This document shows, piece by piece, positions 1,356 through 22,127 of a stretch of DNA of 22,127 nucleotides (positions are counted from its first letter, which is position 1; every line of letters starts with the position of its first letter). This stretch comes from a virus. A model generated the notes under the pieces. That model searched no databases. It was given only the letters and a program-made list of their open reading frames with translations, and was not told the DNA's origin. The translations under genes were made by a program, and so were the position numbers. The stretch is taken from the IMG/VR virus record IMGVR_UViG_3300005253_003379, positions 1 to 22,127 of that record, one strand, 5' to 3'.

Positions 1356-1574
1356 TCAAATAAGTCCAACATCCTGTAGACCTCCAACTGCTATATTTAC
1401 TCCTGCTACCATAATTCCCAATGCAAAGAATAATGTAACAAGATTAAGGATTGTTGCTGAACTACCAGTAACATTTCCAGATGTAGCTAATGAAATTTGA
1501 TCTGCTACGGATGGGATTAAATTTACACCAATAAGTATAGTGATAAATCCTTCAAGTAATCTTCCTAATGCCAT
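1356..1574 (-). CDS. Candidate major virion (capsid/membrane) protein, two hydrophobic helices
   Basis: 72 residues, preceded by GGAGGAGG (1586-1593), one of the strongest ribosome-binding sites here, and by the extended TATA element at 1610-1622. The protein has two long hydrophobic segments, about residues 6-25 and 44-67, joined by a short polar turn with the sequon NVT. It has almost no charge outside the N-terminus. Small two-helix proteins of this kind are the major virion proteins of spindle-shaped archaeal viruses such as fuselloviruses and Nitrosopumilus spindle-shaped viruses. The first place in its transcription unit, a strong promoter and a strong ribosome site fit an abundant product. 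The function is inferred. A small holin-like or pore-forming membrane protein is the alternative. Confidence 0.8.
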   Translation of the reverse strand: MALGRLLEGFITILIGVNLIPSVADQISLATSGNVTGSSATILNLVTLFFALGIMVAGVNIAVGGLQDVGLI

Positions 1575-11609: not shown

Positions 11610-11714
11610 TTATCTTCTTCTAACTCTCTTTCTAACTGCTCTACGAACTTTTCTTCTAACAACTCGTCTAACAACTCTTCTTACCTTTTTCCTGACTTTT
11701 CTTCTTACAACCAT
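11610..11714 (-). CDS. Protamine-like peptide of eight V-R-R-x tetrads (34 aa)
   Basis: ATG 11714 follows GGAGG (spacing 8) and the frame ends at TAA 11610. After Met-Val the whole peptide is eight tandem tetrads: VRRK, VRKK, VRRV, VRRV, VRRK, VRRA, VRKR, VRRR. That is 16 Arg and 5 Lys in 34 residues, with no acidic residue. The DNA repeats correspondingly (GTTAGAAGA-like units). Such charge density is known from protamines and from viral core peptides such as adenovirus mu, so genome condensation inside the virion is a reasonable inference. It is the last of four consecutive tiny basic genes. Other readings are a membrane-active cationic peptide or a nucleic-acid silencer. Confidence 0.72.
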   Translation of the reverse strand: MVVRRKVRKKVRRVVRRVVRRKVRRAVRKRVRRR

Positions 11715-11744
11715 GATGTGTGCCTCCTCAAGTATGATTTGTGA

Positions 11745-11891
11745 TTATTTTTTCTTCACCTTTTTGAATTTTGTGATTTCAACTACCTTATTATTCCTAA
11801 ACCCCAATCTTATATCTCCAACAAACCTAAACCTAGTAGGTTTTTTTCCTGGAGGGGCTTTCATTACAACTTTTACTTTTTTAAGTACCAT
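11745..11891 (-). CDS. Small basic beta-rich protein (48 aa)
   Basis: The start at ATG 11891 is preferred over the longer frame to 11963, because it begins one base after the stop of the upstream gene. Short strands alternate with Lys/Arg clusters (KKVKVVMKAPPGKKP, RFRFVGDIRLGF, KVVEITKF), and the end is KKVKKK. No acidic patches are seen. A nucleic acid- or membrane-surface-binding role in the virion is inferred. Confidence 0.68.
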   Translation of the reverse strand: MVLKKVKVVMKAPPGKKPTRFRFVGDIRLGFRNNKVVEITKFKKVKKK

Positions 11892-11892
11892 G

Positions 11893-12039
11893 TTAAACTC
11901 TACTAACTGCTTTTGCAGTTTCTGATAATAAAGCAACTCCAATAAGAGCTGTTGCTCCTCCAACTAATAATCTACCTATTGATTTGCTTTTCTTTCTTTT
12001 TCCTTTCTTTAACTTTAATCTATATGATTTTAGTGCCAT
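11893..12039 (-). CDS. Tiny membrane protein with a very basic N-terminus (48 aa)
   Basis: ATG 12039 follows the upstream stop by one base (TAA-A-ATG). Residues 4-20 are strongly basic (KLKKGKRKKSKS). Residues 21-38 are a glycine-rich hydrophobic helix (GRLLVGGATALIGVALL), and a short polar tail follows. The design, a basic cytosolic or lumenal arm on one helix, could tether DNA to the virion membrane. No family is recognised. Confidence 0.7.
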   Translation of the reverse strand: MALKSYRLKLKKGKRKKSKSIGRLLVGGATALIGVALLSETAKAVSRV

Positions 12040-12040
12040 T

Positions 12041-12157
12041 TTATTTGTGTTTCTTTACTTTAAACTTCTTTCCTAATCTTGTCAATTTTAAACCCACAGG
12101 TGTTTTTTTCATTGCTCTTTCAATAAACTTTTTTCTTATTTCACTTATTTTAACCAT
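12041..12157 (-). CDS. Tiny basic protein (38 aa)
   Basis: The start at ATG 12157 follows the stop of the 12159-12596 gene by one base (TAA-G-ATG), and the end leads into the next gene by TAA-A-ATG. It opens with an amphipathic helix (ISEIRKKFIERAMKK) and ends in a Lys/Arg-rich tail (RLGKKFKVKKHK). Nothing catalytic is visible. Confidence 0.68.
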   Translation of the reverse strand: MVKISEIRKKFIERAMKKTPVGLKLTRLGKKFKVKKHK

Positions 12158-12158
12158 C

Positions 12159-12596
12159 TTATCTCTTTCCGAAACCTGATGGTTGGAATGGTTTTCTTAT
12201 TCCTGGAGTGATAGGTTTTTCTCCCCTCATCTTTTCAGCTTCTTCCCTCATCCCGGCAGTTCTTTTTTTATTTTCTTCCGTTCGTGCAAGGTTTTTTTGA
12301 GTATAAGTTGAAAATTTGTTAAAAAAGTTGGATGGATTATTTGCCCCAGGTTCTTGCAATCTTTTAACTCTATTCAAAGCCACAAGTTTCTGCATTCCAG
12401 ATTTCTTTGCAGCATCTTTTTTGGCTCTCCCGATTGCAATTTTTAAAGCATTTTTTTTGAACTCTTCTTGAAAAACTTGTCTTTCACGAAAATCAACTTC
12501 TCTTTGCATTCGATTCATCTCTTCTTTCTCTAATCTTTTCCTTTCTTGACTCTCTTGAAATTTTTCTTTTAGATTCCCAAGAAGATTTTCAAACAT
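12159..12596 (-). CDS. Charged helical protein, possible internal virion or scaffold protein
   Basis: 145 residues, with an extended highly charged helix across about residues 5-70 (ESQERKRLEKEEMNRMQ and on). A region rich in Lys and Arg (NALKIAIGRAKKDAAKK) and a polar section with FFNKFSTYTQKN follow. The tail is basic and Pro-rich (RKPFQPSGFGKR). Its ATG overlaps the stop of the 12596-13117 gene by one base (TAATG). Predicted coiled coil and net basic charge suit a DNA-contacting or scaffolding component. Confidence 0.76.
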   Translation of the reverse strand: MFENLLGNLKEKFQESQERKRLEKEEMNRMQREVDFRERQVFQEEFKKNALKIAIGRAKKDAAKKSGMQKLVALNRVKRLQEPGANNPSNFFNKFSTYTQKNLARTEENKKRTAGMREEAEKMRGEKPITPGIRKPFQPSGFGKR

Positions 12597-13117
12597 TACT
12601 TTCTCCTACCTGCTCTAACTCTACTTATCAAATCTCCAAATGATCCATTTTTTATGAATACCACTAAAACAAATACTACTCCAGCTAATGCTCCAAATAA
12701 AACTATTAATCCAGCTATGCTTCTATCTGATTGTCTTTCCAAATAACCATCTGGGCCAAATTCGTAAGTTACATTTATTGTTTCTCCAACGAAAGCACTT
12801 CCAGTTTGATTAACAGTTAATGCAACTGTTTTTATACCATTAATAATTCTTTCATCAATAAATACCCCTAAGTCTTGAAGAGTTAATCCAGTAACATTTG
12901 ATGCGTTTTGGGTGACAGGTGTTCCAATTAATTCTCTTCCTGTTAAAGCGATTGAAGCATTTGTTGCGGGAGCAGTATTATTTTCACTTGATACAGTGAA
13001 AGTATTTGATTGTGTGAAAACACTATCTGCAATACTTGCGAGAAAAACTACTGCGATAATTGCTCCAATAAAGACTGTGAAAATTGCTTTCCCATCTCCT
13101 TTTAACGAGTTTACCAT
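12596..13117 (-). CDS. Membrane glycoprotein with helices at both ends
   Basis: 173 residues. A hydrophobic helix at about 11-32 follows a short basic start, and a second at about 134-156 is followed by a basic cytoplasmic tail (SRVRAGRRK). The 100-residue segment between is Thr/Asn-rich, predicted beta, and carries sequons NNT, NAS, NVT and NQT. It is the first gene behind the promoter at 13141-13168, with AGAGGAG before the start, so it should be well expressed. A virion envelope protein or second major structural protein is likely. Confidence 0.8.
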   Translation of the reverse strand: MVNSLKGDGKAIFTVFIGAIIAVVFLASIADSVFTQSNTFTVSSENNTAPATNASIALTGRELIGTPVTQNASNVTGLTLQDLGVFIDERIINGIKTVALTVNQTGSAFVGETINVTYEFGPDGYLERQSDRSIAGLIVLFGALAGVVFVLVVFIKNGSFGDLISRVRAGRRK

Positions 13118-13140
13118 TATAAATTATAACTCCTCTTGAT

Positions 13141-13168
13141 TTACTAGTAATAAAGAGTATATAAATTT
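13141..13168 (-). promoter_or_regulatory. Late promoter with TATA box and ACTAGT palindrome
   Basis: The minus strand reads AAATTTATATACT (13156-13168) then CTTTA, then the palindrome TTACTAGTAA (13141-13150). The block matches 19510-19536 except for one inserted base. Transcription would start near 13135-13140, just after the palindrome, and feed the 13117 gene and the small basic genes. The palindrome is well placed for a regulator that blocks or supports initiation. Confidence 0.68.
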
Positions 13169-13176
13169 AATTAATT

Positions 13177-13446
13177 TTAAGCTGCCACAATTTTATTAAT
13201 TATCCATCCAATCATAATTGCAGAGAATACTGTTGCAAAAGCAAATATTACTGCAAATCCCCCAACTGCAGCACTGGCAATTATAATTATTGGAAATAGA
13301 AAATAAACAGTTGTATCAAATCCAATTTTCATTCTACTTGCAGCTACAAAATATAAAATAAGGAAAAGTACAACAGCTAAGGTTACACTTCCTGCAATTT
13401 CATTTACAAACAAACATTTAAAATCAATTATTTCACATGCTGGCAT
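13177..13446 (-). CDS. Three-helix integral membrane protein
   Basis: 89 residues. A short N-terminal segment with two cysteines (PACEIIDFKC) precedes hydrophobic helices at about 15-36, 44-64 and 66-86. It has few charges and many Val, Ile and Ala residues. It is the last gene of the 19504-13177 unit, starting one base after the 13448 stop (TAA-A-ATG). It sits beside another small multi-helix protein and the large surface protein, so it may belong to a membrane complex of the virion. Confidence 0.77.
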   Translation of the reverse strand: MPACEIIDFKCLFVNEIAGSVTLAVVLFLILYFVAASRMKIGFDTTVYFLFPIIIIASAAVGGFAVIFAFATVFSAIMIGWIINKIVAA

Positions 13447-13447
13447 T

Positions 13448-13888
13448 TTAATCTTTTCCTCTCAACCATTCTACGACTGTGAGTATGTATATTAAAACAA
13501 TTGGGGCCATTATAAAAGTTCCAAGTATTGCATTTAATGATATTAAATAAACTGCTATAAAAACAAAATCTGATGTTAATAATGCAAATGCAAATGCAAC
13601 CGGAATAAATAGTCTTTGTTCTGAAGGTATCAAAAGAGAAGCCCCAAGAAAAACAGTAGCTCCTGCTATTAATGCTGCGAATCCTACTCCACTATTAAAT
13701 AAACTTGTTATATCCCCAACTAAATTTGAGAAAAATGTAGAAGCGGTTACATTACCAATATCAAGTATTGCATTTAATAATATTGATCCTATTGAACAAC
13801 CAGCTCCAGAACTACAAAGTTGACCTGTTGCTATGAAAATCAAGTCCATAAAGATTAATAGTGTTATGAATGTTACTAGTTTTCCCAT
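13448..13888 (-). CDS. Multi-helix integral membrane protein
   Basis: 146 residues. The first hydrophobic stretch (about 5-22) may act as a signal sequence. A Cys-containing loop (LCSSGAGCS) and a weakly hydrophobic stretch follow, then helices at about 68-87, 92-113 and 118-138. The end is short and charged (EWLRGKD). It is directly coupled to the 924-residue surface-protein gene by TAA-A-ATG. No transporter motif is found. Confidence 0.77.
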   Translation of the reverse strand: MGKLVTFITLLIFMDLIFIATGQLCSSGAGCSIGSILLNAILDIGNVTASTFFSNLVGDITSLFNSGVGFAALIAGATVFLGASLLIPSEQRLFIPVAFAFALLTSDFVFIAVYLISLNAILGTFIMAPIVLIYILTVVEWLRGKD

Positions 13889-13889
13889 T

Positions 13890-16664
13890 TTATCTTGGCA
13901 CTCTTATGAATAACCTCCTGAATATGAAAAATAAACCTGGTAAAGTTAATAATATTGCTATACCAAATTGATTACTAAATTCTCCCAAACTATTTATTCC
14001 TGAATCTGTTGTAGAAACCGCTAGACCTGTATCAAGCCAACCAACAATACTAAATGCCCATGTCATTAATAATAAAACAGCAATATTGCTTTCACTTGTT
14101 TCTATTACTTTTCCTACATTCATGAATATCAATACTCCTGCCATAAATGATAAAACAATTAATAACCTAATAAATTCTGTAATTAATTCATTATCCTTAG
14201 CTAAAGTAAATTGTGTAAAAATGGAGTAATCTCCTGCAAAAGTCGTAAATATAATCCAAGTTCTTGTTACACTAATTGTTTCTTCTGCAGTTTGAATAAG
14301 GAACTTTCCAAATAGTCTTGTATTATTTCCAGTATCTAAAGTTCCGGTTAAATTTCCAACACCAGCATTACTTACAAATAATAATTCAACATTGCTTGAA
14401 TTTGTTATATTCATGCTAATAAAAGTTATTGTTGTTAAGTTACTTGTAACATTGAATGTAAATGGAATAATAGTATTATTTGGAAGTGTTGAATTCAATG
14501 GACTTATTACATAACTTGTTCCTCTGGTTATAATTGTTCCATTTGCAATTGCTTCTGCTCCTGTTCCCAAAACAACTGTTCTTAAGTCTGCTGTAGGATT
14601 AAAACCAAATACATTTTCTGCAAAAGGTACTTTGGTGAATGTTGCAGTATATGTTTCATCAGGATCTAAGAAAAAACTAATAAATCCCGAACCATCTGTA
14701 AATCCTGAAGTTATCGTAACTGTAGTTACTCCAATTAGTCTTGTTATTACTGCTTTAACATCTATAACAGTATCTCCATTTATTGTTACTGTTTTGAAAG
14801 GGGAAAAAAGCCCTAAAGATGTTGGAAGCAAAAATAATACTTGATTTAATGTTACATTTGATAATACTGTTGTCAATAAAAAACTTCTTTGTTGACTTAT
14901 ATCATTATTATAACTCATAACTAAATCTATATTTAATTCTCTATCACCAGGATCTAAACAAAAAGTATAATTTAAATTTTCAGTAGCATTTGAAAAAGAT
15001 AAGGTTTTATTTACATTAGTAATTGTCCCTAGTGAATATACAAATGTAGAAGCAATTGTTGCAGTAATATCTTCTTGTGCTAATGTTTCATTTCTGAATG
15101 ATATGTTTAAGTAAGGAATGTTTAAAGGAGCTGCAGTACAAAGAGTAAAATTAGTAGCATTTATCAATTGGGAACCATTTATTGTTGTTTGGTTCGATCC
15201 ATCAAGTGTGAAATTGAAGAAGAAAGATTTTGTACCATTATTAACTGGGATTGTTATTGCTCTTGTGATGTTGAAATCATTTCCACCTAAACCTGTTATA
15301 GTTGCTCCTGTATTTATTGTTCCATCATAAATTAAACTTGCACTACTTGGGGTTGTACCATTTGTAGTTATATTTATTGTAAATTCTTCATTTGCTGTTT
15401 CAAAAGAAGAGGCATTAAAAGTAAATGAGTTTAAAATAAAATCCCCAATAGTAAATGTTCTAATTGTTGCATTACCACAATTATTTGAAGTATCACAAGC
15501 TTCAAATGTCCAGTTATGAATACCATTAGATATATTTAATGTAAAAATGTAATCTGTATTATTTATTCCAGAAGAGTTAGTTGTATTAAAAACCCCATCA
15601 AGAATTAAACTTACATTGGAAATTCCTCCAGGATCAACAACACTACCGTTAAAAGTAATTGATTGAGTTGTAAAGTTAGCATTATCTATAGGAACATTTA
15701 AAGTTATATCTGGTGCAATAGAGACACTTACAGTAATACTTTCAACATTATATAAATTAGCTGGATCTGCTGGTATTGGAAAACTTCCTCCCCTCTCCCA
15801 AACAATAAATGTTCCTGCTATTTCTCCTCCAGAAGCCCCAAATCTAAAAGTATAAGATGCTCCCCCATCATCAACTACTATCCAATAAAAAGTATCATTA
15901 AATAATTCAAAATTAAATGTTGCATTATCTCCAGAAAAACTTGCATTAGCGAGAATTGAGCCATCAGTATCATTTAAAACATACGCCTCTGATACAGCAA
16001 CGGTTGAAGCTTTTGTTATTGTTATTATATTAATTGAGCTCGTATTTGGAGAAACAATTTTTATTCTGGCCCCAATTCTATCTGAAGAACTTCCCGAACT
16101 AATAAATGATACTCCATGTGCTTCTACTTGTATAATCTGTGCGTGTTTATCTATTTTTTTACCTGCAATTGCCCATATAATATCAAGATGATCTTTTAAT
16201 CTTACTTCTACTTCTACTCCAATCCTTAGATTTCCTTTGGGAATATCTCTTAAATTATAGTCTAACCATTCTCCATTAGAACATTTATTGATTGTTCCAT
16301 TTACAGTTTCAATATCTTTACAAGTTCCCTCTTTAAAATAAACATATTTCCAATTTCTTTCAACTAATTCTCCTTTTCTTACATTTATAAGTTCAATATC
16401 TCCAAGTCCATTAAAGTAAATTTCAGTAAAATTAAAATCATACCACATAACAACTTGTTTTCCTGCTCCAACTTGCTTAACATAATTTATAGAAGGATGG
16501 CTTTTTAATTCTGCACTACCATAATTAATCCCCAATCCAAACCAATTCTTTAATTCAACTTTTAAATCATTATTTGAATAAATTAATTTATTATCCCATT
16601 CTGCTGCACTTATAGTTCCAACTAATAAAACCATAACAAACATCATTAACATTAATTTTTTCAT
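13890..16664 (-). CDS. Large Ig-domain surface protein (candidate spike), C-terminal membrane helices
   Basis: 924 residues. A signal peptide (about 1-20, cleavage near ISA-A) leads into a long beta-rich ectodomain with dozens of N-x-S/T sequons. Around residues 310-405 a clear Ig-like repeat is seen: ITLNVPIDNANF, then VSLILDGVFN, then HNWTFEACD and a Cys pair. An NGEWLDYNLRDIPKGN-type segment near 125-145 resembles DPANN surface proteins I recall. Three hydrophobic helices and a basic tail (RRLFIRVPR) close the protein at about 820-924. In size and layout it parallels the large end or attachment proteins of spindle-shaped viruses. Receptor binding is inferred. Confidence 0.85.
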   Translation of the reverse strand: MKKLMLMMFVMVLLVGTISAAEWDNKLIYSNNDLKVELKNWFGLGINYGSAELKSHPSINYVKQVGAGKQVVMWYDFNFTEIYFNGLGDIELINVRKGELVERNWKYVYFKEGTCKDIETVNGTINKCSNGEWLDYNLRDIPKGNLRIGVEVEVRLKDHLDIIWAIAGKKIDKHAQIIQVEAHGVSFISSGSSSDRIGARIKIVSPNTSSINIITITKASTVAVSEAYVLNDTDGSILANASFSGDNATFNFELFNDTFYWIVVDDGGASYTFRFGASGGEIAGTFIVWERGGSFPIPADPANLYNVESITVSVSIAPDITLNVPIDNANFTTQSITFNGSVVDPGGISNVSLILDGVFNTTNSSGINNTDYIFTLNISNGIHNWTFEACDTSNNCGNATIRTFTIGDFILNSFTFNASSFETANEEFTINITTNGTTPSSASLIYDGTINTGATITGLGGNDFNITRAITIPVNNGTKSFFFNFTLDGSNQTTINGSQLINATNFTLCTAAPLNIPYLNISFRNETLAQEDITATIASTFVYSLGTITNVNKTLSFSNATENLNYTFCLDPGDRELNIDLVMSYNNDISQQRSFLLTTVLSNVTLNQVLFLLPTSLGLFSPFKTVTINGDTVIDVKAVITRLIGVTTVTITSGFTDGSGFISFFLDPDETYTATFTKVPFAENVFGFNPTADLRTVVLGTGAEAIANGTIITRGTSYVISPLNSTLPNNTIIPFTFNVTSNLTTITFISMNITNSSNVELLFVSNAGVGNLTGTLDTGNNTRLFGKFLIQTAEETISVTRTWIIFTTFAGDYSIFTQFTLAKDNELITEFIRLLIVLSFMAGVLIFMNVGKVIETSESNIAVLLLMTWAFSIVGWLDTGLAVSTTDSGINSLGEFSNQFGIAILLTLPGLFFIFRRLFIRVPR

Positions 16665-16978
16665 CTTCTTTTAACTCCTGTCCAATTTCTAACTAACCAC
16701 ATTATAGAAGCTAAAAAAAAAGCTCCTATAAACCATACCATTCCTATTCCTGTAACAAAACAAACTGGTCTTTTATTTAATTTATCGAATTTATCATCAT
16801 CATCAAAATCACTTTGATTAAAGTTTGGAGTTCCAGGACAATTTAAAAAAGCATTGCCTCGAGCTTCATCAAACGTTTCTTTAAAAGGATCAATAGTTGC
16901 GACTAAAGCTAAAGTAAGTATAAGAAATACAGTTAGTAATGCAAATCCTATGGTTGATTTTTGTCCTTTTTTATTCAT
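16661..16978 (-). CDS. Two-helix membrane protein with cysteine ectodomain
   Basis: 105 residues. A basic MNKKGQK start and hydrophobic helix (about 9-27), an acidic ectodomain with one cysteine in each of LNCPGTPNF and RPVCFVTG, then a second helix (about 78-95) and basic end VKRR. I recall the NCPGTPNF...CFVTG pairing from DPANN contig proteins, always hypothetical. The start and stop both overlap neighbours as ATGA, placing it between the 788- and 924-residue proteins in one coupled set. Confidence 0.78.
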   Translation of the reverse strand: MNKKGQKSTIGFALLTVFLILTLALVATIDPFKETFDEARGNAFLNCPGTPNFNQSDFDDDDKFDKLNKRPVCFVTGIGMVWFIGAFFLASIMWLVRNWTGVKRR

Positions 16979-19341
16979 TTTACTTTTAAATTCATCGGAA
17001 TTTTCTTTAATTTCTTTGCTCGTTGAATTGCTTTAACTTCTGTTCTTGTATTTAATCTTTTACTTCTTCTTTCAATAATTGTAAATGTATTCTTTTTTCT
17101 CAATGGAGATTTAGGAACAGGTCTTCTAAAAGTAGCTGCAGGAATATTGATTTTTTTAATATCTTTTTTAATTGGTTTTTTATTTGATGGAATTATTCTT
17201 CCACTAGCTGCTAAAGTTGTATCTAAAACTTTCAATAATCTTCTTTTAGCTCTATTTTCTGGAAGGTTGCTGGCTATTTTTTTGAATTTTCCTTGTCTTC
17301 TAACTAAAACATTAAAACTTTTTCCTGAAATCTCAAATGGGATTTTCTTAAATACTTTTTTCTTCACTCTCTTTTTAGGAAAAGGTATTGGCGGTGGAAG
17401 AACTCCAAATCTTTTTAATCTTGGTCTTAGTTTTAAACCAGTCTTTAATGAATTCCTTAAGAGTTGTCTTAAAGCCAATCTTGAAGCTAATCTTTGCCTT
17501 AGTATTAACCTTTGCCTTCCTCTTTGAATTGTTTTTGTTTCTGTTCTTTGTTTTAGTACTAATTTTTGCCTTTCTTTCTGTCTTTGTTTAACTCTTTGAG
17601 CAGAAGTTAATCCTACTTCTACAAATCCTGCTTGAGCTAACTTGAATTTTTCTCCTAAAGATAATTTTGATCTTGCGATTCTCCTTTGATTTCTTGCTTT
17701 ATTAGTAGCAACTCTTCTTTCTTCTCTAATTCTTCCTGGAGTTTTTCTTTTTGGAACAAGAACTGTAATAGGTCTTTCTGGTATAACTCTTGCTTCTACT
17801 CTTGGAATTATCTCAACTTTTGGGAGTTTAATTATTTCTTTTTCAACTAAACCCAAAATAAAGTTTTCAAAATTTCTTTTTTCTTGTGGCGTTCTTAATC
17901 TTTTCTTTAATTCTGCTAATATTTTTGCTTGTTCCTTTGGGGTTTTAGCTAAAGCTATTCTTCTTTCAATTGCAGCTAAAGCTTCTCTACCTTTTCTTAT
18001 ATCTTCTGGATCTAATTGTTCTAACTCTCCAAATCTTCCTCCCTTTTTCTTTTTTAAGAATCTTCCTAGTTCATCAAATCTTGTTTCTCCTCTCCTTCCT
18101 GGAGGAATAGCTTTTTTTAATAAATCAGTAACTTGTTTGAATTCTGCTTCTGCTCGAGGCAAAGCTTTTAATCCTGTTACTGAAAATCCTGCACCGAATG
18201 AAATTAAACCAATTGTTTGTAATATCGCTGCATCTATTCCTTCTTGGTCAAATGTTCTTTTAACACTAAGTCCTGCAGCACCTGTTAATGTTATTGCTCC
18301 TAATCCTCCTATGGCATTTATTGATTTTTGGAATTTTGGATTTCCAGTTAATGTTCTTGGCAATAATCTAGCCCCTGCACCACGTATTAATGTTACTACT
18401 TTTCCTATTCCTGCCCCTAAAACAAAACCTCCAACAATTTCTTTAGTTATATCTCCTATTCTTTCAGCTTGTATTGGAGTAAACTTAAAAACTCCTTTTG
18501 GATCTGATAATGCTTGTTTAAATTTACTTTCAGAGAATTTTCCTAACCCAAGTACTGTAGGAACTCCTGGAGGAATAGCTTTTTGTAACGCATTTCTTAA
18601 GTCTACATTTTTAATAAATCTAAGTTGGGGTTGGCTTTCTCTTATATTTCTAACTAATTGTTCTATATTAGTTTCTGCTACCCTGACAACTCCTGGAGGA
18701 ATTTCAGGAGGAGCGACTCTAATAGGAATTGGTTCTCTTAATTGCCTTGATAATTGTAAAGCAATATCTTCAAAACCCACTAGTTTTTTTCCAATAACAA
18801 TTGGTTCTACTCCTTCTAATGTTCTACTTTGCTTTGTAATTAAATCTTGAAATCCTTTTAATTCCCCATCAATAAAAATAGGTTCTAATCCTCTCTCTCG
18901 TAATTCTCCAATTTGTTTTTCTATTCCTAATCTAACTGCAGTTGTTTTACCTGCAGATATTTGTTTAAAAAATTCTTGTTCTTTTCCAGATAAACCAATT
19001 ACAGCTCTAGGATCATCTGATTGAAAAGCTTTCAATGCTCTATTAAAAGCAGCTTGTTCTTCTTGTTGTACTCTTATTTGTGATTCAATAGCACTAACTT
19101 CTCTGGATGCTTCATCTAAACTCTTTTCTATAGGATTTAAAATTGCTAAAGCTCGTTTTCTAATGTCACTTAATCTTTGTGCTTCAGTTTGTCTTTGTGC
19201 TATACTTTGTTTAGTTTGTTGTCTTACTTGTGCTGCAGTTAATGCTAGTTGTTGAGTTCTTTGTTGTATTTGTTGTCTTTGACTAGCTACTAAACCTCTT
19301 TGTGTCTGAATACTTGCTCGAGCTTGGGCTACTGTTACCAT
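16975..19341 (-). CDS. Large basic coiled-coil protein with a glycine-rich membrane-like core
   Basis: 788 residues. The N-terminal 130 residues are a Gln/Arg/Ala-rich coiled coil (TQRGLVASQRQQIQQRTQQ). A mixed region to about 290 follows. Hydrophobic glycine-rich stretches lie at about 300-385 (VGGFVLGAGIGKVV, then LGAITLTGAAG, then LISFGAGFSVTG). The C-terminal half is very rich in Lys and Arg (RRERK-type runs). There is no signal peptide. A coiled coil plus central hydrophobic helices resembles tape-measure or internal membrane-penetration proteins, but no tail genes are present. An internal virion protein, or a DNA-membrane linker, is the inference. It is coupled to the next gene by ATGA. 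Confidence 0.8.
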   Translation of the reverse strand: MVTVAQARASIQTQRGLVASQRQQIQQRTQQLALTAAQVRQQTKQSIAQRQTEAQRLSDIRKRALAILNPIEKSLDEASREVSAIESQIRVQQEEQAAFNRALKAFQSDDPRAVIGLSGKEQEFFKQISAGKTTAVRLGIEKQIGELRERGLEPIFIDGELKGFQDLITKQSRTLEGVEPIVIGKKLVGFEDIALQLSRQLREPIPIRVAPPEIPPGVVRVAETNIEQLVRNIRESQPQLRFIKNVDLRNALQKAIPPGVPTVLGLGKFSESKFKQALSDPKGVFKFTPIQAERIGDITKEIVGGFVLGAGIGKVVTLIRGAGARLLPRTLTGNPKFQKSINAIGGLGAITLTGAAGLSVKRTFDQEGIDAAILQTIGLISFGAGFSVTGLKALPRAEAEFKQVTDLLKKAIPPGRRGETRFDELGRFLKKKKGGRFGELEQLDPEDIRKGREALAAIERRIALAKTPKEQAKILAELKKRLRTPQEKRNFENFILGLVEKEIIKLPKVEIIPRVEARVIPERPITVLVPKRKTPGRIREERRVATNKARNQRRIARSKLSLGEKFKLAQAGFVEVGLTSAQRVKQRQKERQKLVLKQRTETKTIQRGRQRLILRQRLASRLALRQLLRNSLKTGLKLRPRLKRFGVLPPPIPFPKKRVKKKVFKKIPFEISGKSFNVLVRRQGKFKKIASNLPENRAKRRLLKVLDTTLAASGRIIPSNKKPIKKDIKKINIPAATFRRPVPKSPLRKKNTFTIIERRSKRLNTRTEVKAIQRAKKLKKIPMNLKVK

Positions 19342-19508: not shown

Positions 19509-19536
19509 TTTACTAGTAAAAAGAGTATATAAATTT
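19509..19536 (-). promoter_or_regulatory. Late promoter with TATA box and TTTACTAGTAAA palindrome
   Basis: The 13-base element AAATTTATATACT (19524-19536) is followed, on the minus strand, by CTTT and the 12-bp palindrome TTTACTAGTAAA (19509-19520). It begins at the stop codon of the 19536-19778 gene. It drives the 19504-13177 unit. The match with 13141-13168 extends over about 27 positions with one gap. Confidence 0.7.
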
Positions 19537-19778
19537 TATTCAATCTTTTTTTCCTTAATTATTTCTCCACTTATATAACAACTACAGATTTTAGAACGAT
19601 CATCATAAGTATAACTATCATAAGTAATTATTTTATTTCCACCACAAATATCATACATACAAATGTCTTCTTCATTTAAATCTTCTATTGCTTGGAAAGT
19701 TAACCAAATTAATATTGAAGTTTCTAATACAAACAAAATAATGAATACTATTGATGTTATTTTCCACCCATTAGCCAT
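19536..19778 (-). CDS. Single-pass membrane protein with disulfide-prone ectodomain (80 aa)
   Basis: The start at ATG 19778 (MANGWKIT) is preferred to 19793. It overlaps the preceding gene by 8 bases. A single helix at about 9-28 is followed by an ectodomain with five cysteines (DICMYDICGG, then KICSCY) and acidic and Tyr residues. The order C-x3-D/N-I-C then YYDD-like then I-C-x-C-Y matches small proteins I recall from DPANN genomes. The end is basic. It is the last gene of the 1574-19536 unit. Confidence 0.74.
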   Translation of the reverse strand: MANGWKITSIVFIILFVLETSILIWLTFQAIEDLNEEDICMYDICGGNKIITYDSYTYDDRSKICSCYISGEIIKEKKIE

Positions 19779-21793: not shown

Positions 21794-22127
21794 TCATTCA
21801 AATTCCTCCTCTTCTCCCCCTTGCTCTTGTTCAAATCTTTCTTCTTGTTTAGTTCTTGAAAAAGCATCTTCTATCAAGAACCAAAATCCTATTCCAATTA
21901 AAACAGAACCTAGAGCTAAACCAAATAAGGTAGTATGATTAATGAAATTATATCCTGGAAATAAAGTTAAAACTCCCATTACCATTAAAATGATTGATCC
22001 CATTTGTTTTAATAGGGTATATCTTTCATTTAATAATCCAAATATAATTAAAAGGAATCCCAAAAGAATAACAGCAAATTGATTTGGAAATGCTTCAAAA
22101 GGTTTTCCATCGGCGGTAACATCAAAA
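21794..22127 (-). CDS. Signal-peptide membrane protein, C-terminal part (start at 447 on the circle)
   Basis: This is the rest of the gene listed at 1-447. The window's right end repeats bases 1-121, so the frame enters at the right edge and runs to TGA 21794. This part holds three hydrophobic helices (FAVILLGFLLIIFGLL, then GSIILMVMGVLTLF, then TLFGLALGSVLIGIGFWF). An acidic tail follows (EQEQGGEEEEFE). It should not be counted as a separate gene. Confidence 0.82.
   Translation of the reverse strand, partial: FDVTADGKPFEAFPNQFAVILLGFLLIIFGLLNERYTLLKQMGSIILMVMGVLTLFPGYNFINHTTLFGLALGSVLIGIGFWFLIEDAFSRTKQEERFEQEQGGEEEEFE
22007..22127. repeat. Right copy of 121-bp terminal direct repeat
   Basis: Identical to bases 1-121. 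An odd-length exact overlap is typical of a de Bruijn-graph contig that closes on itself. On the circular map this segment should be counted once. Confidence 0.93.

Follow-up and report, generated by a model that had tools for sequence, protein, structure and literature searches.

A putative protamine-like core peptide of basic tetrads in the virion operon of a spindle-shaped archaeal virus

A 34-residue peptide composed of Val/Arg tetrads is encoded near the end of a long minus-strand virion operon in the window, by which we mean the whole 22,127-nt stretch of DNA analyzed here. With a probability of about 0.62, this is a protamine-like virion core peptide that would bind and neutralize the DNA of a spindle-shaped archaeal virus. 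Comparison with close relatives indicates that the gene is real, that its position is conserved and that conservation acts at the protein level.

The tetrad gene and the virion operon

Capsid searches identified four viral contigs at 88-90% capsid identity (G001 to G004, hereafter the close relatives); G005 followed at 63%, and six further contigs at 46-52%. G001 to G004 share much of the virion block with the window, and the features surrounding the tetrad gene are as follows:

11610-11714, minus strand: tetrad peptide gene, 34 aa, MV-(VR[RK]x)8, with counterparts in G001, G002 and G004
11723-11727, minus strand: GGAGG ribosome-binding site, 8 nt 5' of the ATG, with an equivalent GGAGG in G001, G002, G003 and G004
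11733-11746, minus strand: conserved leader AATCACAAATCATA, directly upstream of the ribosome site of the tetrad gene
11745-11891, minus strand: 48-aa basic peptide with the conserved core PTRFRF..IRLGFRNN, direct upstream neighbour of the tetrad slot here and in G003 and G004
11893-12039, minus strand: 48-aa peptide with a Lys/Arg-rich N-terminus and a hydrophobic C-terminus, weakly like a capsid-protein helix
12041-12157, minus strand: 38-aa peptide rich in Lys, with a counterpart in G001 at 55% identity
11099-11542, minus strand: 147-aa downstream neighbour of the tetrad slot, here as in G003 and G004, with a hydrophobic segment at its N-terminus
12159-19341, minus strand: upstream virion block with genes of 145, 173, 89, 146, 924, 105 and 788 aa, syntenic in relatives

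Translation of the minus strand at 11610-11714 yields MVVRRKVRKKVRRVVRRVVRRKVRRAVRKRVRRR, laid out as MV-VRRK-VRKK-VRRV-VRRV-VRRK-VRRA-VRKR-VRRR, in which 8/8 tetrads match V-R-(R/K)-x. With 16 Arg and 5 Lys, 21 of the 34 residues are basic and neither Asp nor Glu occurs, a short, Arg-dominated and acid-free composition that is protamine-like. The original prediction had described this pattern after Met-Val, and its charge, just as the translation gives them; it had also called a proper ribosome site, which is present and reads GAGGAGG in its longer form. No ORF is found on the plus strand of the same interval. The 14-nt leader is also present in G001 and, with 1 mismatch, in G002, despite the different upstream genes there. 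Within the window the leader occurs a single time.

Four tiny basic genes lie in the order 12041-12157, 11893-12039, 11745-11891 and 11610-11714, the tetrad gene being the last of them, as had been proposed. They share the block with an SSV-like capsid protein and a large, putative surface protein, and this block is conserved in the four close relatives. The 924-aa product is probably a surface or end protein. The 11893-12039 peptide gave weak tblastn matches at the capsid loci of G002, G003 and G004 (E 0.001-0.009); by its sequence, it may serve to anchor DNA to capsid or membrane. Its hydrophobic segment resembles the N-terminal helix of the capsid protein. The block also encodes a Gln/Arg-rich basic protein of 788 aa (16975-19341, minus strand), which is 56% identical in G001 and just 23-27% identical in G002 and G004, and which matched no known family.

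Conservation of the tetrad slot

The slot is occupied by MVNGRRVKKAVRRVKRKVKRVARRAGRKAARRTVRRKKR in G001, MVNGIRKKVRKAIRKKVRKAVRKKVRKAIRKAVKKRRRRS in G002 and MARLGRPKGSKTRRTTRRTARRTARRTTRRVLRRKKK in G004, in each case within the cluster of small genes that follows the 145-aa gene, and by a 20-aa basic peptide with no period, MARKKARKKKRVGRPRKKRR, in G003. Both flanking neighbours of the slot are the same in G003 and G004 as in the window; the PTRFRF peptide is absent from G001 and G002, where the tetrad peptide is still the last of the cluster. Counted in units of (non-basic)(basic)(basic)x, the run is 8 units long in G002, 6 in G001 and 6 in G004, and shuffling produced a run as good 0, 5 and 2 times per 50,000, respectively. 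That close relatives carry this pattern in the equivalent position thus argues for a real gene. The original prediction had asked for such a search and had named frameshifts, stops or loss of the tetrads as grounds for refutation; the frame is open in the close relatives, and three of the four (G001, G002 and G004) keep basic tetrads. The family so far has four clear members and one doubtful one.

Across these relatives, the basic dyad every four residues is constant and the first tetrad position is V, I, A or T. Valine at every first place, which had been singled out as a hallmark, is therefore true of the window peptide and fails as a conserved feature; the G004 peptide has mostly Thr in the Val places and is 19% hydrophobic. 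AT-hook-like GRPR/GRPK motifs are confined to the counterparts in G003 and G004.

The window and G002 peptides are identical at 18/32 residues, and a different codon is used at 10/18 of these. For this pair pS was 0.79 (saturated) and pN was 0.25, a predominance of synonymous changes of the sort that had been sought and one that, resting on 32 codons of limited composition, is suggestive and not a formal test. When the alignment was shifted by one or two tetrads, pN rose to 0.32-0.40.

No ORF with a run of more than three units was detected in the more distant relatives (some of these records were read in part), in His1 or in the portion of the SSV1 sequence covered. Together with the 20-aa G003 version, which has no tetrads, the lack of the peptide in distant relatives with the same capsid type indicates that virions of this type can do without it. 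Searches for close relatives with the 89-, 145- and 521-aa proteins returned no match. The capsid protein is present in two tandem copies in G004 (L125:10001-10453) and G005 (L138:10001-10586), comparable to VP1/VP3 of SSV1.

Chance and DNA-repeat origins

No composition-preserving shuffle of the residues reached the eight in-register V-R-(R/K)-x units of the peptide (0/200,000, with a maximum of six), and dinucleotide shuffles of the window never gave even four units (0/100). The eight 12-nt units of the gene have a mean mutual identity of 65%, compared with an expected 69% (sd 4%) when synonymous codons are drawn at random from this genome's usage, which indicates that the period is held at the protein level and does not reflect recent tandem duplication. 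In GTDB genomes, at least 119 stretches with five VRRx-like units were recovered. Among those listed, most had units 0.9-1.0 identical on a 9-nt measure (0.71-0.78 for the tetrad gene on the same measure), and they lay in arbitrary frames, often with the start codon absent. A 12-bp DNA microsatellite origin was rejected on the codon-level unit identity together with the contrast with true microsatellites in public genomes.

Virus identity and host

Two features of the window bear on the identity of the virus:

1-121: direct terminal repeat, 121 nt, with an identical copy at 22007-22127
1356-1574, minus strand: gene for the 72-aa major capsid protein, of the type known from spindle-shaped viruses; it opens the virion operon, which spans the circular junction

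The terminal repeat indicates a complete genome, circular or circularly permuted, of approximately 22 kb and 30% GC. The capsid protein showed approximately 42% identity to VP1 of SSV1 and SSV2 over 94-96% of its length in tblastn (E ~1e-5 to 5e-5), and it matched the Pfam families VP1_VP3 (E 8e-4) and His1_capsid, both below the curated cut-off. This VP1-like gene points to a spindle-shaped virus of the fusellovirus/halspivirus type, an assignment made by the capsid gene. Products on the replication side include a DNA methylase and a primase/helicase-like protein. A TATA-box-like sequence of the AAAGAGTATATAAATTTAATT type is present three times (1606-1626, 13152-13172 and 19520-19540), and these boxes are likely archaeal promoters.

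Among 371 genomes from the same phylum as a Woesearchaeota assembly (DPANN), the capsid protein was also found in two genome bins, both of one order. The contigs concerned, G274:C4 and G358:C27, carry homologues of further virion proteins besides the capsid, and they are possibly proviruses or binned viruses. G358:C27 also carries an ORF judged by eye to be tyrosine-recombinase-like. The host would thus probably be a DPANN archaeon, an assignment inferred from binning, as the flanks of the virion genes on both contigs are not clearly cellular. No paper on spindle-shaped viruses of DPANN was found in the literature searched, which lay mostly outside subscription journals.

Predicted structure and helical geometry

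AlphaFold2 modelled the tetrad peptide as one helix over residues 2-33 (pLDDT 89, pTM 0.44), which for a short charged 34-mer is weak evidence. The full-length hydrophobic moment was 0.20 at 100 degrees and 0.88 at 90 degrees, the best angle, and 18-residue windows were moderately amphipathic (0.65). Designed Arg/Val antimicrobial peptides (LBU/WLBU) are spaced for amphipathicity at a period of 3.6, and one such peptide gave a moment of 1.18 at 100 degrees. The tetrad peptide has the Arg and Val composition in common with them and differs in its spacing at a period of 4.0, with which the Val stripe would wind round an alpha-helix. The low moment at 100 degrees therefore favours DNA binding over a straight amphipathic membrane helix.

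Comparison with known families and systems

The tetrad peptide showed no homology to any known DNA-binding family and no Pfam match, and no match was obtained against phage records or solved structures. A search of 180 genomes from the order of the likely host, run without a positive control, found no similar peptide. When viral contigs were scanned for V-R-[RK]-x arrays, most of the matches listed were of the out-of-frame, serine-codon or DNA-repeat kind and none was a clear relative.

Baculovirus P6.9 and adenovirus mu/pX are tiny Arg-rich virion peptides that condense dsDNA. The tetrad peptide is likewise tiny and Arg-rich, with no sequence match to either; to our knowledge, neither has a strict period of four. 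HMGA-type AT-hook peptides target AT-rich DNA. The GRPR/GRPK of the G003 and G004 counterparts is flanked by basic residues in AT-hook fashion, and the window peptide differs in having no GRP core; the Pfam AT-hook model matched no version of the slot peptide. The motifs in G003 and G004 suit a genome of 30% GC.

A precedent in a spindle-shaped virus is SSV1: its virions contain Sso7d, a chromatin protein of the host, as well as the DNA-binding protein VP2 (PMC9608457, PMC4158269). VP2 is scattered in distribution and reported to be dispensable (PMC4158269, PMC9608457). Like VP2, the tetrad peptide is small, very basic and encoded alongside the capsid genes of a spindle-shaped virus; unlike it, it has tetrads, whereas VP2 is 74 aa long and has none, and it falls outside the VP2 Pfam family. 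The profile PF25632 (Fusello_VP2_Capsid) scored SSV1 VP2 at 138 bits and gave the tetrad peptide no score, and tblastn detected no VP2 homologue in the window. The peptide would thus be an analogue of VP2, not a homologue.

Binding to DNA is known for peptides built from KPAA tetrads, for which a helix wrapped around the DNA has been modelled (PMC9239181). KPAA repeats make up the tails of the histone H1-like proteins AlgP and PhaF of Pseudomonas, and these tandem tetrads with regular basic residues resemble the eight units seen here. The tails contain proline and one Lys per four residues, are long and disordered, are attached to a folded domain in a larger protein and vary in copy number, whereas the tetrad peptide has two basic residues per tetrad, no proline or KPAA, and is free-standing at 34 aa. 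Since DNA-binding period-4 basic repeats (KPAA of AlgP/PhaF) and SSV1 VP2 are already known, the "new kind" of core peptide in the original prediction claims too much.

Proposed function and alternatives

The DNA-binding or condensing role that had been suggested remains the best reading, given the basic period-4 design and the position in the virion block. As a protamine-like core peptide it draws on the conserved basic dyad, the AT-hook-like relatives, the hydrophobic moments and the KPAA and SSV1 precedents. From these sequence data, we infer its presence in the virion, the timing of its expression, its binding and condensation of DNA and its helical form on DNA. The peptide would be produced from the virion operon and would bind the 22-kb AT-rich viral DNA through Arg/Lys pairs spaced every four residues, folding to a single helix once bound. 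The phosphate charge would then be neutralized and the genome made condensable in the virion, a role that in SSV1 is attributed to VP2 and Sso7d. More tentatively, and doubtful in our view, the peptide could represent a separate class of viral chromatin peptide, an uninterrupted helix in which dyads at a period of 4.0, not 3.6, make the charged face wind round the helix, so that it could follow a groove of the DNA; such peptides would be natural polycations of nearly pure design that condense AT-rich genomes, and would be interchangeable with the AT-hook-bearing versions in sister viruses.

Any very basic peptide could also bind RNA, acidic lipids or the capsid. A linker that coats DNA or bridges it to the negative inner face of a lipid-containing spindle envelope, or to the capsid protein, with no bulk condensing, is unlikely, even though the same genomic evidence would fit it. 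The neighbouring 48-aa peptide, in which a basic arm is coupled to a hydrophobic helix like that of the capsid protein, makes basic-to-membrane bridging plausible in this virus; the tetrad peptide itself has neither a membrane segment nor a conserved non-basic face. A factor acting on viral or host DNA or RNA in the cell, through nucleoid-like compaction or interference with replication or translation, would suit a basic composition that fits RNA and DNA alike and a gene at the operon end. We regard it as rather improbable, as the gene is contiguous and co-directional with virion genes in the relatives seen and has a strong ribosome site.

Very unlikely is a membrane-active cationic peptide of the lytic or antimicrobial type, for entry, egress or the killing of competitors, an option that the original prediction had left standing. 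The LBU-type composition and the moderate amphipathicity of the 18-residue windows speak for it; against it stand the low full-length moment with its winding Val stripe, the hydrophobic stripe largely lost in G004, the AT-hook-like motifs in two relatives and the lack of an apparent signal peptide. That the ORF is no gene, only a chance ORF or a 12-bp microsatellite read in frame, is exceedingly improbable and appears in the main to be already refuted by the relatives: such microsatellites are common in public genomes, but the tetrad units are no more alike than random synonymous codons would yield, the ORF is conserved with its ribosome site and leader, and its pS far exceeds pN.

Implications

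The organization of DNA in spindle-shaped virions is poorly known, and work on SSV1 implicates VP2, which is poorly conserved, and a chromatin protein borrowed from the host. On the core-peptide reading, the present group of viruses, which probably infect DPANN archaea, would supply a minimal polycation of its own, with a near-pure Val/Arg tetrad design. As the peptide is small enough for synthesis, DNA condensation by a period-4 basic helix is directly testable, and the peptide may offer a simple natural scaffold for work on DNA compaction.
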